Of a stretch of 64,000 nucleotides of DNA, positions 43,793 to 49,726 are shown in pieces. This DNA is from Leptospiraceae bacterium (GTDB taxonomy: Bacteria > Spirochaetota > Leptospiria > Leptospirales > Leptonemataceae): NCBI GenBank assembly GCA_020441005.1, contig JAGRNA010000048.1, positions 1 to 64,000 on the forward strand, read 5' to 3'. How positions within the stretch are numbered: position 1 is the first letter of the stretch; the number at the start of each line of letters is the position of its first letter. The position numbers and the translations under genes are program-made. The notes below the pieces were generated by a model. The model saw nothing but the letters and a program-made list of their open reading frames with translations, did not search any database and was not told the DNA's origin.

Positions 43793-46120
43793 CTATGGAG
43801 TGATCTCTGTACCAGGACGATATTCCCGGTAATGTCCCGCGCCGAGAGCCCGGACTTCTGCGGCCGAGCGCAAGGTACGGCGCAGCTGCCGCGTGGCAAA
43901 GAGCGGCGCTTGATCGGCAAAATGAGGCGAGTCCGCCACATCGCTGTTGCCAAACTGATGTAAGGACCAGGCCCGCGGCCCATCCGGATGAAAGGCCACG
44001 ATACTGATATACGAGTCGCCCGCCGTTCCGACCAGGTGACTGCCCTCCAGTTCGCCATGAATCGCATTGAGCACATCCGGACCGCCGCCCAGCCCCAGGT
44101 CCAGATCGCCGCGCCGTAGACGCTGCACTGTTCCGAGCGGGACATCCACCCGGCCATAATGATCGCTTAGCCACTCCACTGCAGATCGAAAACTTGCCAG
44201 CGGATCCGGCAGTTCATGAGCATGATCGAGGACAATCGCCTTCCAGATTGGCCGCCAGGTGAGAATTGCCAGCGCCGCAGCCCGTGAGTCGGGATCTGTA
44301 TTGCCGTCCCAGTTAGCCAATAGCGCCAGTCCCTTCTTTTCGGCCTCCGTACGGGGCTGGAAATGTTGCAATACCGGATCAATTGCTTCCTTATAGATCG
44401 GTGCTCCCCGGGCATACTTGCGGTCCCATTTATAGCTTACAAATTCATCGTGCGTGATGCTGCGATCCCGACCAAACAATTCATGCGAGCGCATCGCCCG
44501 GTTGGTAATCCGCATTTCGATGCCCTGCTCCGGTTGGTAGCGCCGCGGATCCGGATTGCCGTAGCCGGTGGTCGTCACAAAGGGCGATGAATTGCAGTTT
44601 TGGATAAAACCGGAAGGCGGATTTGTAACCTGGGGCAACTGATCAAAGTCCAGATACTTCTGCCAGATTAAATCCGAACGACTGCCGTCCATGACAGCCT
44701 GCCAGTCCAGTCCAGCCTGGCGCTGCGGTAAAAGGGCATTGTATACATAATAAATATTGTAACGGTCCGCATACACCGTGTTGAACATCGGCAGGGCCTG
44801 CATACGCATCGCCTGTTGCCATTCCGCCAGATTGTGGGCCTTGCTCATGCGGTACCACTGCTCTACCGCCCGGGTAAAGCGGCCCAGCCCGGCATAACGG
44901 ATCGCAAAGTAGCCAAAGTCATTTTGGAACACCGGTCCGTGCCGGCTCCAAAAAGCCGACTTGTAGATGGTAAACGAGAACAGGGTCAAATCAATCTCAA
45001 TCGGGACGCGGGTGATACCGAGGGGCAGCCACTCGTCATCCAGCTTGTAGACCAGACCGCTGCCTGTGGCGCTGGCGGCCCTGACTCTTTTGACCGTCAG
45101 CCGGTAGACATCGAGAGCGTCGCTTTTATTGACTGTGTGCGCCCAGCCCAGCTGGTCATTATGACCGACCAGAATCAGGGGCGCGCCCGGAAAGGTGCCG
45201 CCGTTCATGTTCCAGCCATCGTCCGATGCAACATGGGCCTCATACCAGGCAACCGGTCCGGTCCACGGTTGATGCGAATTGATATTCAGGCGTGTGATCC
45301 CGTCCGCTGAACGACCAGGCCCGACGGCATGGCTGTTGCTGCCTTCCAGATGCAGAGTGGCATCTGCCTGCGCGCCAAAATCAGCCGCCCGGGCAATATC
45401 CATCGGGAAGGCTGACTTTAACCACTGCAGAACCTGTAGCGAACCGCCGGTTTGCGGACCGGAGTTGGAGTGCAGGGCAGGGATCCGATCACCCACTGAC
45501 CAGTTTCGATCGGCCTTGCTCAGCGCCCCGACTACGGTATGCAGGCGCATAAAAAGCGGCAGTTTATGCGCAAAGCCAGCCGCCAGATCAATGCCCTGCA
45601 CCGGAAAGATACGCCCATCGGCTGCGCCCGGGTGTAAAGCAGCATAGTAATTCAGACCGGCTGCGTAGCCTTCCAGCAGGTCCTTGGTGGACGGACTCAA
45701 CTGCGCATCATAATCGGCCGCGACACGCGGCCAAAGGCGGATCAGGCCGGTATAAAAGTCATTGCCCAGCGCCGCTCCGTTCAGCCGGAACAGACCCAGC
45801 TTGCCGCGCGTGGCCGCCAAAATCAGCTGGATTTCGGCAAAGTCATCCTCGGCGTGTGCGTAGGCCAGGCCAAAGGCCGCGTCCGCATCACTCTGACCGT
45901 GTATATGCGGCACGCCATAGTTATCGCGTAGAATTTGTACCCGGCCGGCCTGCTCCTGCATGGCCTTTGTAAGCGCCACGTCCGCGCGCAGCAGCCAGGA
46001 GCGCAGTCCAACCCAGGTAATCAGGACCAGGAGCAGGACCGCTGTATTGCGTAGCGCACCTTGCCAGCGTTTTGGAGATTGGTTGGTTCGTTTGTTCGTC
46101 ACAGCGACCAAGGCTATCAA
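43793..46120 (-). CDS. Penicillin/AHL acylase-family Ntn hydrolase
   Basis: About 775 residues. The first codon at 46120 is TTG; a GTG at 46102 (MTNKRTNQ) is an alternative. One N-terminal helix (NTAVLLLVLITWVGLRSWL) exports or anchors the protein. QILRDNYGVPHIHGQSDADAAFGLAYAHAEDDF opens the alpha chain; Ser261 of GSNSHAVGPGRSADG is the predicted nucleophile of the beta chain. FPGAPLILVGHNDQLGWAHTVNKSDALDVY and NCNSSPF follow. The GSNxxAVG version of the junction points towards AHL-acylase/aculeacin-acylase relatives rather than penicillin G acylase. The first 120 bp of this gene and its upstream region are duplicated at 49516-49726. Confidence 0.92.
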   Translation of the reverse strand: MIALVAVTNKRTNQSPKRWQGALRNTAVLLLVLITWVGLRSWLLRADVALTKAMQEQAGRVQILRDNYGVPHIHGQSDADAAFGLAYAHAEDDFAEIQLILAATRGKLGLFRLNGAALGNDFYTGLIRLWPRVAADYDAQLSPSTKDLLEGYAAGLNYYAALHPGAADGRIFPVQGIDLAAGFAHKLPLFMRLHTVVGALSKADRNWSVGDRIPALHSNSGPQTGGSLQVLQWLKSAFPMDIARAADFGAQADATLHLEGSNSHAVGPGRSADGITRLNINSHQPWTGPVAWYEAHVASDDGWNMNGGTFPGAPLILVGHNDQLGWAHTVNKSDALDVYRLTVKRVRAASATGSGLVYKLDDEWLPLGITRVPIEIDLTLFSFTIYKSAFWSRHGPVFQNDFGYFAIRYAGLGRFTRAVEQWYRMSKAHNLAEWQQAMRMQALPMFNTVYADRYNIYYVYNALLPQRQAGLDWQAVMDGSRSDLIWQKYLDFDQLPQVTNPPSGFIQNCNSSPFVTTTGYGNPDPRRYQPEQGIEMRITNRAMRSHELFGRDRSITHDEFVSYKWDRKYARGAPIYKEAIDPVLQHFQPRTEAEKKGLALLANWDGNTDPDSRAAALAILTWRPIWKAIVLDHAHELPDPLASFRSAVEWLSDHYGRVDVPLGTVQRLRRGDLDLGLGGGPDVLNAIHGELEGSHLVGTAGDSYISIVAFHPDGPRAWSLHQFGNSDVADSPHFADQAPLFATRQLRRTLRSAAEVRALGAGHYREYRPGTEITP

Positions 46121-46185
46121 AGCGGACTAAAGCGGCAAGGTGATTCGCAATGAAAGACCGGGACAGATCGCGGGGCACAAGGCCC
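45975..46185. repeat. 211-bp direct repeat, left copy (acylase 5' end)
   Basis: About 95% identical (11 mismatches by eye) to 49516-49726 in the same orientation. This copy includes the first ~145 bp of the acylase gene and 65 bp upstream. The pair brackets 3.3 kb with VapBC and both DGR-type targets. Confidence 0.93.
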
Positions 46186-46222: not shown

Positions 46223-46600
46223 CTATTTAGGAAAGTATTTCAGATTTTTCCCGGCAAAAATCTGAAAATCCGAATCCTGAGTCCATAGTACTGCATCATA
46301 ATGGATTACCGTAGCCCAAATAATACTATCAGCCATTGGTATTCTATTTTCGCTACTTATACGGGCTGCTGATAAAGATAATACTTGATCCAAATCAATG
46401 ATTTGACCCATCTGCATGTGCGCAATCGCAGTAAGGGCAATATTTTCGTCTGTTTCCGAGTAGAGCTTCTTAAAAACCTCATATAGTGTAACGACCGGAA
46501 TCAATAGTTTATTTGTATTTTCGACAGGTTTTGCAAATAATGAGGCCCTGTCTGAGTCAGAAAAGTACTCTAACCAGCCTGAGGAGTCAACGATATTCAA
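46223..46600 (-). CDS. vapC: PIN-domain ribonuclease toxin (VapC family)
   Basis: 125 residues. The PIN fold has its acidic residues in MNIVDSSGWLEYF (first Asp), TLYEVFKKL (Glu), PMADSIIWATV (Asp) and LWTQDSDF (Asp). VapC toxins cleave tRNA or rRNA sites and are blocked by a paired antitoxin. The start overlaps the antitoxin stop by 4 bp. The base composition is clearly more A/T-rich than the acylase next door, which suggests horizontal arrival. It lies just inside the left 211-bp repeat. Confidence 0.93.
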   Translation of the reverse strand: MNIVDSSGWLEYFSDSDRASLFAKPVENTNKLLIPVVTLYEVFKKLYSETDENIALTAIAHMQMGQIIDLDQVLSLSAARISSENRIPMADSIIWATVIHYDAVLWTQDSDFQIFAGKNLKYFPK

Positions 46601-46803
46601 AATCTATCCTTTTCTCTATCGATAGAAGTGCTTAACCCTTTTGCAATTCCTCTTATTTTCTTGATATTTTGTAATGGAATAATCTCTATTCTGCCATCGT
46701 AATAAAAGATTTCCACTTCTTGACCAGGCCTTAGATTGTTTTTTTCACGGACTTCTTTTGGTATCACAACCTGATATTTCGCTGAAATTGTCACAGTGCT
46801 CAT
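46597..46803 (-). CDS. vapB: AbrB/SpoVT-type antitoxin (VapB family)
   Basis: 68 residues. A swapped-hairpin AbrB/MazE DNA-binding domain occupies residues 1-45 (STVTISAKYQVVIPKEVREKNNLRPGQEVEIFYYDGRIEIIP); the acidic/basic tail (GLSTSIDREKDRF) should wrap around the toxin. As usual for TA pairs it is upstream of, and overlaps, the toxin gene and likely represses its own promoter. The A/T-rich 60 bp upstream holds a CGATAAGAAAATCG-type inverted repeat near 46850, a possible operator. Confidence 0.92.
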   Translation of the reverse strand: MSTVTISAKYQVVIPKEVREKNNLRPGQEVEIFYYDGRIEIIPLQNIKKIRGIAKGLSTSIDREKDRF

Positions 46804-46990: not shown

Positions 46991-47143
46991 CCAAATGCGT
47001 CAGCATTTGACCGCACTGGGTGAGTACGCCGGGATTTCTTGCTAGCCAAATGCGCCAGCATTTGGCCGCACTGGATGAGTGCGCCGAGATTTCTTGCTAG
47101 CCAAATGCGTCAGCGTTTGACCGCACTGGCATGAATTCGCTGG
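46991..47143. repeat. Tandem palindromic repeat, three units of 55 bp
   Basis: Palindrome arms CAAATGC at 46992, 47047 and 47102, exactly 55 bp apart. Each unit is CAAATGC, a 4-nt loop (GTCA or GCCA), GC(A/G)TTTG, then a conserved flank ACCGCACTGGGTGAGTACGC and, in units 1 and 2, CGGGATTTCTTGCTAG or a near copy. Unit 3 ends with the GGCATGAATTCGCTGG variant. It resembles a REP/BIME-type element. No RAYT transposase gene is in the window. Confidence 0.9.
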
Positions 47144-47292
47144 ATAAATAAGTGAAGCAACTATACGCGCCTGGCTATTGCTATTTTCGTCAATGTTAAA
47201 TACTAAAGCCGCAGATCGGCGGCAAGGATGCCGCCGCCAAACACCGGCGCTTGATTGTCCGGATGACAATCACCGCGACGGGCCTTTCTTTG

Positions 47293-47390: not shown

Positions 47391-47864
47391 TCACGGTCCG
47401 GATGACACACAACGAACATAGCAGCTAGACGCCTTACTGTAGGATTCCACGTAGCCAGTGGCGAAGGCGACGATCCACGCTTTCGTTGTATCGCCAACAG
47501 AGGTAGTAGCCGACCAATAATTGTGGGCAACTGTGCTCGGGAATTTGGTCGCATCGATCGACGGGTTGGATGTAGTGTAGTCCACGATACTCTTGAGTTC
47601 GTTCACGTTGGGCAGGCGCCAGCTGCGGCCAGCCAGGCTGAGACTGTTGCAATAGCCCAGGGCCGTATCCCAGTTGGCGGTGGTTGCCGATCCGCTGCAA
47701 GTAGCATCACTGGTCTGGCCGCGCAAGCATTTCTGCCAGACCAGATGATTGGCCGTATCGCTAATCGTACCGTCGCCATTATCGGTGAATGACGGTGCCG
47801 CCGCGGTCGGGATGCCAATGACCAAAGCTATGATGATGGTTAGTACCTGGCTTCGTTGTTTCAT
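47391..47864 (-). CDS. DUF1566 (Lcl_C) exported protein, candidate DGR target A
   Basis: 157 residues with AAGGA 11 bases before the ATG. A Sec signal peptide (VLTIIIALVIGIPTAAA) is followed directly by one DUF1566 domain: FTDNGDGTISDTANHLVWQKC, WDTALGYCNSL, SWRLPNVNELKSIVDYT, NYWSATTS, AWIVAFATGYV, CYVRCVS. DUF1566 is a C-type-lectin-like ligand-binding fold known among DGR-diversified proteins. The last 44 codons before the tail (47409-47540) are the variable region; see that entry. It is secreted rather than lipidated. It lies downstream of target B in the same direction, inside the 211-bp repeat bracket. Confidence 0.9.
   Translation of the reverse strand: MKQRSQVLTIIIALVIGIPTAAAPSFTDNGDGTISDTANHLVWQKCLRGQTSDATCSGSATTANWDTALGYCNSLSLAGRSWRLPNVNELKSIVDYTTSNPSIDATKFPSTVAHNYWSATTSVGDTTKAWIVAFATGYVESYSKASSCYVRCVSSGP
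47409..47540 (-). repeat. Candidate DGR variable region A (132 bp)
   Basis: Aligned codon by codon to 48106-48237 without gaps, it shows about 39 differences, of which about 34 are at codon positions 1 or 2. Variable pairs keep their third base: TCT/TAT, GGC/GCC, GAT/AGT, ATC/TAC, GCC/CAC, GCC/AGC, TAC/TCC, TAC/GCC, AGT/GTT, TCT/AAT, AGC/GTC, TGC/TAC. Constant codons are identical even at wobble bases (ACT ACC, GTT, ACG, GCG TGG, GTC, TTC, GGC, GTG, AAG, TAT GTT CGT TGT). This fits a template with AAC/AAT codons at the variable sites. Confidence 0.85.
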
Positions 47865-48093
47865 TTTTTTGCTTTCCTTTGTTTTTGTATGGTTTCATGA
47901 CCCTGACGATTGCATTGTTTTGGCATGTGCCGGTTGTGCGCGGGTCCGGGCTGCAAAGCAGGGCCGCCTGAGAAGTCAAATTCCAGTTGCACCGGGCGCG
48001 TCGGGATTTATGGCCAGCCAAATGCGCCAGCGTTTGACCGCACTGGGTGAGTGCGTTGACCGAACTACAAGCGCCGCAGCCAGGGGGGTTTTC
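47865..48093. other. Gap between DGR targets A and B
   Basis: 229 bp with the leader of target A and one palindromic repeat (48018-48060). A block GGAAAACCCCCCTGGCTG (minus strand) directly after target B resembles GGTAAACCCGCCTGGCTG after target A, so homology between the two loci extends beyond the variable regions. Confidence 0.65.
48018..48060. repeat. Palindromic repeat downstream of target B
   Basis: CAAATGC, GCCA loop, GCGTTTG, then the ACCGCACTGGGTGAGTGCG flank: the same family as the tandem copies near 47 kb. It lies about 70 bp beyond the end of variable region B. Confidence 0.85.
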
Positions 48094-49167
48094 CTAATTA
48101 CTAACACAACGAACATAGTAGACATTTGTCTTAACGGCGGCACCCACGGAGCCAGAGCTGAAGTGGACGTACCACGCGGCCGTAGTACTGGCAACATAGG
48201 TAGTCGCCGACCGATAAATGCTGGGAGCTGTGGCCGGAAAGGCGCTGGCAAAGCTCCATTTACTATCCGCGTAGGCATAATCGACCAGGGTCGATAGCTC
48301 CTGGATCGTCGGCACCCTCCAGCCTGTACGCCCCGCATAGCCATTGCCGGCATTGGCGCTGTTGAGCGCATCGCAGCCGGTGCCCGTGCCGGTGGCCGTA
48401 GCCCAGTTCATGGTGCTGGCCGCGCCGGAACTGCAATCGGCACCGCTCTGTCCCTCGGAGCAACTCTTCCAGACCAGGCCGGTCACGTTGTCGGTGGTCG
48501 TATAATCGCTGGTATACGTTACATGTTGCGTGGGGCCAGTGAAACTGCGCGCCAGGCCAATCTGGTGCTCGCCGTCCTGGCCGGTGCCACTGCAAGCAAT
48601 CAGCGTGCCGCTACTATCCCAGCACTGGGTAATGCTGGTCGACAGGGTCTGCGGTGCGAGGGCCGCCGCAACCTCAATGCTGATCGTAGCGTTGCCGGAG
48701 CCAAGGCTGTTGGTGGCCGTAATCGTGTAGCTGGTGGCACCCTGGGTAGCCGTGGGCGTGCCCGAAATCGCGCAGCTGGTCGCATTGATGGAAAGGCCGA
48801 CCGGCAGGGTCGGCGAGGACGTGCAACCAGTGGGGGTGGTGCCGGTCAGGCTCGGTGTAATCTTCGTAATGGCGCTATTCTGCGTGAAGCTATACGGCGA
48901 GCCGCTGTATGTCACCGTGGGTGCGGTGCCGCCGCCAGTATTCCCTCCGGTATTGCCCCCGCCAGCGACTGCCAGGGCTACCAGCAGATTACGCCAGGTA
49001 TTGTTTTCCGGAAAAGTTTGCACACAATTATAGATGCTCAACACAAGCAGGCTGGCCAGAGCTGCCCGGTAGCCGCTTAAGTTTTGCAAACGCCTGAAAA
49101 ATAGTTCACTGACTGCTTTGTTGCTTGCATATCTTATGCCAAATGCGTCAAAATTATTACGGGTCAT
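48094..49167 (-). CDS. Putative-Ig/DUF1566 lipoprotein, candidate DGR target B
   Basis: 357 residues from the ATG at 49167; the frame extends to 49254, and a TTG just before QNLSGYRAALASLLVLSIYNC would give a normal-length lipoprotein signal. The lipidated Cys is in LSIYNC. Next come a Gly/Asn/Thr linker, a putative-Ig module (TVTYSGSPYSFTQNSAITKITPSLTG...LPVGLSINATSCAISGTPTATQGATSYTITATNSLG), and a C-terminal DUF1566 domain (VTGLVWKSC, WRVPTIQELSTLVDYAY, YRSATTYVAST, AWYVHFSSG, YYVRCVSN). The variable region is 48106-48237. A surface lipoprotein with a diversified lectin-like tip is the inferred picture, as in the Legionella LdtA type. Confidence 0.87.
   Translation of the reverse strand: MTRNNFDAFGIRYASNKAVSELFFRRLQNLSGYRAALASLLVLSIYNCVQTFPENNTWRNLLVALAVAGGGNTGGNTGGGTAPTVTYSGSPYSFTQNSAITKITPSLTGTTPTGCTSSPTLPVGLSINATSCAISGTPTATQGATSYTITATNSLGSGNATISIEVAAALAPQTLSTSITQCWDSSGTLIACSGTGQDGEHQIGLARSFTGPTQHVTYTSDYTTTDNVTGLVWKSCSEGQSGADCSSGAASTMNWATATGTGTGCDALNSANAGNGYAGRTGWRVPTIQELSTLVDYAYADSKWSFASAFPATAPSIYRSATTYVASTTAAWYVHFSSGSVGAAVKTNVYYVRCVSN
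48106..48237 (-). repeat. Candidate DGR variable region B (132 bp)
   Basis: Partner of 47409-47540. In this copy nearly all variable residues use NNC or NNT codons (AGC, ATT, TAT, GCC, AGT, GCC, TAC, CAC, AGC, TCT, TCC, GGT, GCC, GCC, GTT, AAT, GTC, TAC), as expected from mutagenised AAC/AAT template codons. It ends in the common TATGTTCGTTGTGT, a candidate initiation-of-homing sequence. Upstream of the region the two genes differ at wobble sites (GTG GAC TAC against GTC GAT TAT), so the near-identity is confined to the variable region. Confidence 0.85.
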
Positions 49168-49481
49168 AATTCCAGCCTTGCTTGTCTTCAATGGAAAATA
49201 TCTATTTACGCCTCCTATGTCATTTTTACAGAAAATGATGCTTTTTTTCGGCATGTGTCGGGCAAATTGACAGTAGGGCCCATTGATGAGCCGTCAACGG
49301 ACACTCCCGCTGACCTGGCCCAAGGCAGCCTTTTATTGCCGACCACGACTGTTTGTTGCCTTGCCGAATTGGTGGCCGGGGCTAGTCCCGTTGCGGTCTA
49401 CCCGATTTTTGTGCCACTGTGCAGCCATAATTCACAATCCGGTGCAATTTACATCCATTGCGGGTAGTATACCTGGTAGAC

Positions 49482-49661
49482 TCAAAAACCGGGGTTCGTT
49501 CGCCTGCTTGCAATTGCCACATCCGCGCGAAGTAGCCAGGAGCGCAGTCCAACCCAGGTAATCAGGACCAGGAGCAGGACCGCTGTATTGCGTAGCACGC
49601 GTTGCCAGCGTTTTGGAGATTGGTTGATTTGCTTGTTCGTCACAGCGGCCAAGGCTATCAA
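49482..49661 (-). pseudogene. Truncated 5' fragment of the penicillin-acylase gene
   Basis: 59 codons: the acylase signal/anchor region is preserved (NQSPKRWQRVLRNTAVLLLVLITWVGLRSWLLRADVA), then an unrelated tail IASRRTNPGF and stop. It is the coding part of the right 211-bp repeat. It could still express a membrane-inserted peptide, but a duplication scar is the simplest view. Confidence 0.8.
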
Positions 49662-49726
49662 AGCGGACTAAAGCGGCAAAGTGATTCGCAATGAAAGACC
49701 GGGACAGATCGCGGGGCACAAGGCCC
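49516..49726. repeat. 211-bp direct repeat, right copy
   Basis: Copy of 45975-46185, about 95% identical, offset 3541 bp. Its left border falls where the acylase similarity stops (GCCAC). Its right border ends in the shared CACAAGGCCC. Confidence 0.93.

Follow-up and report, generated by a model that had tools for sequence, protein, structure and literature searches.

DUF1566 is among the commonest target domains of diversity-generating retroelements (DGRs; PMC4159848, PMC6642488), and the described systems closest to the locus reported here are three DGRs from Campylobacterota MAGs with Lcl_C/DUF1566 targets: JAFGVR010000222 of Campylobacterales, JAOZVJ010000088 of Arcobacteraceae and JACNLH010000020 of Sulfurimonas ponti. 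These loci hold target, template and reverse transcriptase (RT) together, and the RT is directly preceded by the template. In cyanobacteria, remote variable proteins have their variable region (VR) at the 3' terminus of genes that encode a C-type-lectin fold and lie far from the RT, but there the same genome is known to contain RT and template (PMC7517822). Diversified targets without an RT have been found on Nanoarchaeota fragments (PMC4372165) and in T. denticola (PMC4891356), other hosts with other target families than ours; the respective authors interpreted them as fossils or as remotely served. Both categories of target, remote and RT-less, are known from the literature (PMC4372165, PMC7517822, PMC4891356).

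Unlike the Campylobacterota loci, the window analysed here (the whole stretch of 64,000 nt from a Leptospiraceae bacterium) contains targets only. Two adjacent genes encode Lcl_C/DUF1566 proteins (Table 1). The profile search gave PF07603 matches with E=2.4e-34 for gene 1 and E=3.8e-29 for gene 2 (bit scores 118.6 and 101.8, both above the gathering cut-off of 34.9), and a PF05345 match in gene 2 (E=1.9e-10). The product of gene 1 is predicted to be exported and that of gene 2 possibly carries a lipoprotein signal; the placement of the gene 2 start codon is uncertain. Alignment confirmed that the two genes share a gap-free 132-bp segment at their 3' ends, as had been proposed, and VR1 and VR2 were also picked up as direct repeat D3 in a repeat search of the window. 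The stops lie 5 and 3 codons beyond the VR ends, and both length and position agree with the roughly 100-200 bp at the gene 3' end that is typical of DGR targets. The invariant edge TATGTTCGTTGT occurs in VR1 and VR2 and also closes the templates and the target genes of the complete Campylobacterota DGRs on their 3' side; it is a candidate homing site (IMH). The AlphaFold model of gene 1 (mean pLDDT 86) had its best Foldseek match in the C-terminal domain of Legionella Lcl (8q4e, E=1.3e-4), followed by weaker matches to C-type lectins (E 0.005-0.1). The model supports a C-type-lectin-like target domain, which is one of the ligand-binding folds (C-type lectin or Ig) of DGR targets, and is in line with the original prediction and the literature in regarding DUF1566/Lcl as a DGR target fold. 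Eight further Lcl_C matches in the genome, read by eye, lacked the VR constant-codon set and so are not recognisable as targets of the same template.

Table 1. Features of the locus and of related genomes (window positions unless another sequence is named)
Feature	Coordinates	Strand	Description	Basis
Target gene 1	47391..47864	(-)	157-aa Lcl_C/DUF1566 protein, hydrophobic signal-peptide-like N terminus	ORF
VR1	47409..47540	(-)	132 bp, codons 109-152 of gene 1	gap-free match to VR2
VR1 invariant 3' edge, TATGTTCGTTGT	47409..47420	(-)	candidate homing site	
Target gene 2	48094..49254	(-)	386 aa, He_PIG Ig-like domain and C-terminal Lcl_C/DUF1566	ORF
VR2	48106..48237	(-)	132 bp, codons 340-383 of gene 2	gap-free match to VR1
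VR2 invariant 3' edge, TATGTTCGTTGT	48106..48117	(-)	candidate homing site	
PIN-domain gene	46223-46803			profile search
219-bp direct repeat	45967-46185 and 49508-49726		two copies, 94% identical, nowhere else in genome	
55-bp unit	46991-47155		three tandem copies	
55-bp unit	48018-48072		one copy between the two DUF1566 genes	
Further core site, CAAATGCGYCAGCRTTTG	11575			
G022 DUF1566 target with half template downstream	L060 9328-9736 (about G022:C1:423328-423736)		frameshifted	
G033 DGR RT	L062 1001-1825 (G033:C14)		about 100 profile positions missing mid-protein	
Tandem Lcl_C frames in G033/G041	L061 447-1298, L063 7483-8325, L064 8530-9375, L066 8118-8951			

The differences between the two segments were then compared with those in the aligned codons upstream. 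VR1 and VR2 differed at 39 of 132 nt; split by codon position, the first had 16 differences, the second 18 and the third 5. The earlier estimate by eye of about 39 differences, about 34 of them at the first two positions, is thereby made exact (39 and 34). The third base was kept in 20 of the 25 variable codons, and 19 of these 20 ended in C or T, again as first described. Over the 89 aligned codons upstream, by contrast, positions 1, 2 and 3 carried 36, 38 and 58 differences (Fisher P=3e-4 for position 3 versus 1+2, VR versus upstream). Codons for the same residue, leaving out Met and Trp, had identical DNA in 18 of 20 cases within the VR versus 12 of 32 upstream (P=2e-4), so that the claimed identity of constant codons beside wobble differences upstream was upheld; of the evidence from the locus itself, this contrast is the strongest. 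Two same-residue codons in the VR did differ, Ala GCT/GCG and Thr ACA/ACT, as would be expected from A in the template, and the remaining three third-position changes can be derived from A as well. Both VRs are uninterrupted reading frames, and no difference between them requires a change at a base other than A. Ordinary paralogues under diversifying selection at binding residues, whether or not gene conversion also acted, and with no DGR involved, would likewise show changes clustered at codon positions 1 and 2 of a lectin-like domain. However, selection would not preserve the third base in so many variable codons (20/25), nor erase neighbouring synonymous differences while upstream codons differ, and gene conversion would also erase the differences at positions 1 and 2.

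Since the genome's own template cannot be proved from two copies, real templates were sought in other genomes. An AWNVNFN-type template peptide pattern found 96 viral contig stretches, and 81 viral loci fetched by this pattern also encoded a DGR-type RT. Another viral pattern, AAGAC-N10-TATGTTCGTTG, was discarded as a template finder, its three matches being chance-like. A pattern for the 3' half of the template led, among named genomes, to the three Campylobacterota loci, where a DGR RT occurs together with targets and a copy rich in AAC/AAT. These loci aligned gap-free with the window VRs over 44 codons, and have in common with them the domain family, this layout and many constant words (TGG, TTC, GGC, AAG, TATGTTCGTTGT). 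Their templates also had A where the window varies: at 32/39 differing versus 22/93 identical window sites in Sulfurimonas ponti (P=8e-10), 29/39 versus 24/93 in Campylobacterales (P=5e-7) and 25/39 versus 19/93 in Arcobacteraceae (P=4e-6). Among 70 distinct AWNVNFN-type templates, the mean proportion of A was 63% at differing and 14% at identical window sites. Aligned in this way, homologous templates of complete DGRs predict which window sites vary; tested with these templates in place of the genome's own, the differences fall mostly at adenines, which agrees with the adenine mutagenesis from an AAC/AAT-rich template that had been postulated. Selection among ordinary paralogues would not match the A sites of DGR templates in distant bacteria and phages, and we regard that explanation as highly improbable. 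Both segments are very probably DGR variable regions made by mutagenic retrohoming. A DGR reverse transcriptase would have copied one adenine-rich template RNA with errors at A, the second half of this template being reconstructed as encoding roughly AWNVNFNTGNVKNNNKTNNYYVRC, and the cDNA would have taken the place of the original 3' end in each of the two Lcl_C genes. Such copying would have restored every other base to that of the template and diversified what is probably the ligand-binding face of two exported proteins with a C-type-lectin-like domain. The adenine-linked pattern, the layout shared with complete DGRs, the fold and the rewriting within the lineage (below) are supported directly; the enzyme and the template for these VRs we infer.

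A trans-acting, remote DGR with at least two targets had been proposed, together with a genome-wide check for its RT and template repeat. In the genome's own assembly (304 contigs, 89.9% complete) we found no PF00078 (RVT_1) match, no match to a profile built from four DGR RTs, no PF22296 (Avd) match and no copy of the segment besides the two VRs. The shared VRs of the original prediction thus stood, and the DGR itself was not recovered; RT, template and Avd were all missing from the assembly, which does not prove their absence from the organism. The Avd accessory protein is common in DGRs, though not universal. When the reconstructed template DNA was compared with the own genome, 60 relatives and phage and plasmid records, it matched only VRs and a relic in the relative G022. 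For raw reads or unbinned contigs, GCGTGGAACGTCAACTTCAA can serve as the search word for the template.

VRs of the same kind were present in seven relatives of the class (G022, G028, G029, G030, G033, G034 and G041). Exact-pattern and BLAST searches found no intact matching template in these seven, some of which are 99-100% complete; G022, G030 and G033 are among the near-complete ones. Among 393 genomes of the phylum the template type gave no match to the exact pattern with zero mismatches, the relic in G022 having been found otherwise. In G022 (four contigs, 99% complete), half of an A-rich template lies about 200 bp downstream of a frameshifted DUF1566 target, with no RT. After insertion of a one-codon gap to make it fit, this half template had A at 14 of the 16 window differing sites in that stretch, and 29 of its 32 non-A bases equalled both window VRs; the locus is the relic of a DGR in a genome that is nearly complete. 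G033 has six VRs, and its sole DGR is of FGE type and decaying, the RT lacking part of its middle (Table 1); upstream of this RT are genes for HRDC and bAvd, and downstream of it is a template of FGE type. G042 also has an FGE-type DGR, which looks complete. In both genomes a DGR-type RT, bAvd and the template are close together with an HRDC gene adjoining, and the template, of FGE-sulfatase type, does not match the Lcl VRs; the G033 RT locus was accordingly ruled out as their source. We also observed in G033 and G041 single frames that encode a tandem pair of Lcl_C domains; both domains have a VR, and one of the VRs is therefore internal to the protein. A three-contig genome of the same family as the window genome, G006, has ten RT genes on G006:C1. 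They form two near-identical sets, one with three genes of 459 aa and the other with seven of 422-456 aa, and are probably group II introns.

Two observations bear on whether the DGR is gone or unassembled. First, a VR lay within 300 nt of a contig end in 5 of 14 contigs versus 0.74 expected (P=2e-4). Such a result fits with assemblies that break at hypervariable or repeated sequence, and the lack of templates is then less of a surprise. Second, at third positions that are non-A in the Sulfurimonas template, VR1 and VR2 were 92% identical, while their identity to VRs of other genomes was on average 70% and at best 86.5%; at positions 1+2 the values were 61% within the genome and 58% to other genomes. 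Wobble sites therefore follow an in-genome template without counterpart in the relatives, and the last rewriting occurred within this lineage. It was probably recent, since about 80 non-A sites carry no difference that needs a non-A change.

These data were weighed for two alternatives that accept a DGR origin. If the DGR has gone from the lineage, the VRs are frozen fossils and now ordinary paralogues. This agrees with the empty searches for RT, Avd and template in the own assembly and for an intact matching template in G022, G030 and G033, with the broken target and half template of G022, with the shortened RT of G033 (a different DGR type), and with the T. denticola isolates that retain target genes without RT and template (PMC4891356). 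Against it, the own assembly is just 89.9% complete, and the open VRs, their confinement to changes at A and their wobble identity mean that any loss was recent, which argues against an old fossil. We give this reading an even chance. A resident, active DGR on an unassembled stretch, serving both targets in trans as originally envisaged, would account for the recent rewriting and could lie in the roughly 10% of the genome missing from the assembly. Remote targets are well established, with 76 in the cyanobacterial survey (PMC7517822), and the contig breaks in relatives show that such loci assemble badly. However, seven VR-bearing relatives, some 99-100% complete, yielded no intact matching template, and we consider a resident DGR possible, though with the balance tilted against it. 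Most likely the DGR is mobile, lost or unassembled. The absence of an intact matching template from good assemblies favours loss or a mobile element, and we lean towards a DGR that sat on a mobile or poorly assembled locus, acted on these genes in trans and was later lost or left unbinned.

The neighbourhood of the two genes was also inspected. A 219-bp direct repeat brackets a 3.5-kb segment containing a PIN-domain gene and both DUF1566 genes, its left copy overlapping the start of a penicillin-acylase-like gene, and may mark how this segment was inserted or duplicated. A small AbrB-like frame, seen by eye directly upstream of the PIN-domain gene on the same strand, probably forms a toxin-antitoxin pair with it. 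A 55-bp unit with the palindromic core CAAATGCGYCAGCRTTTG looks like a REP-type repeat; the core has five matches in the window, where none is expected.

DGR targets can thus be recognised from two paralogues alone, without RT or template. This matters because a large RT-anchored survey of metagenome contigs was blind to remote targets (PMC8144416). None of the papers searched reports DGRs in this spirochaete class, and the present results point to many DGR-diversified surface proteins in it and raise a testable question, the location of the templates. A mobile Lcl-type DGR may visit genomes throughout the class, use its own template to rewrite several lectin-like genes at scattered sites, and leave, an idea that we think unlikely but worth stating. 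If it were true, diversified targets would outnumber resident DGRs, and each lineage would be imprinted by a different template.
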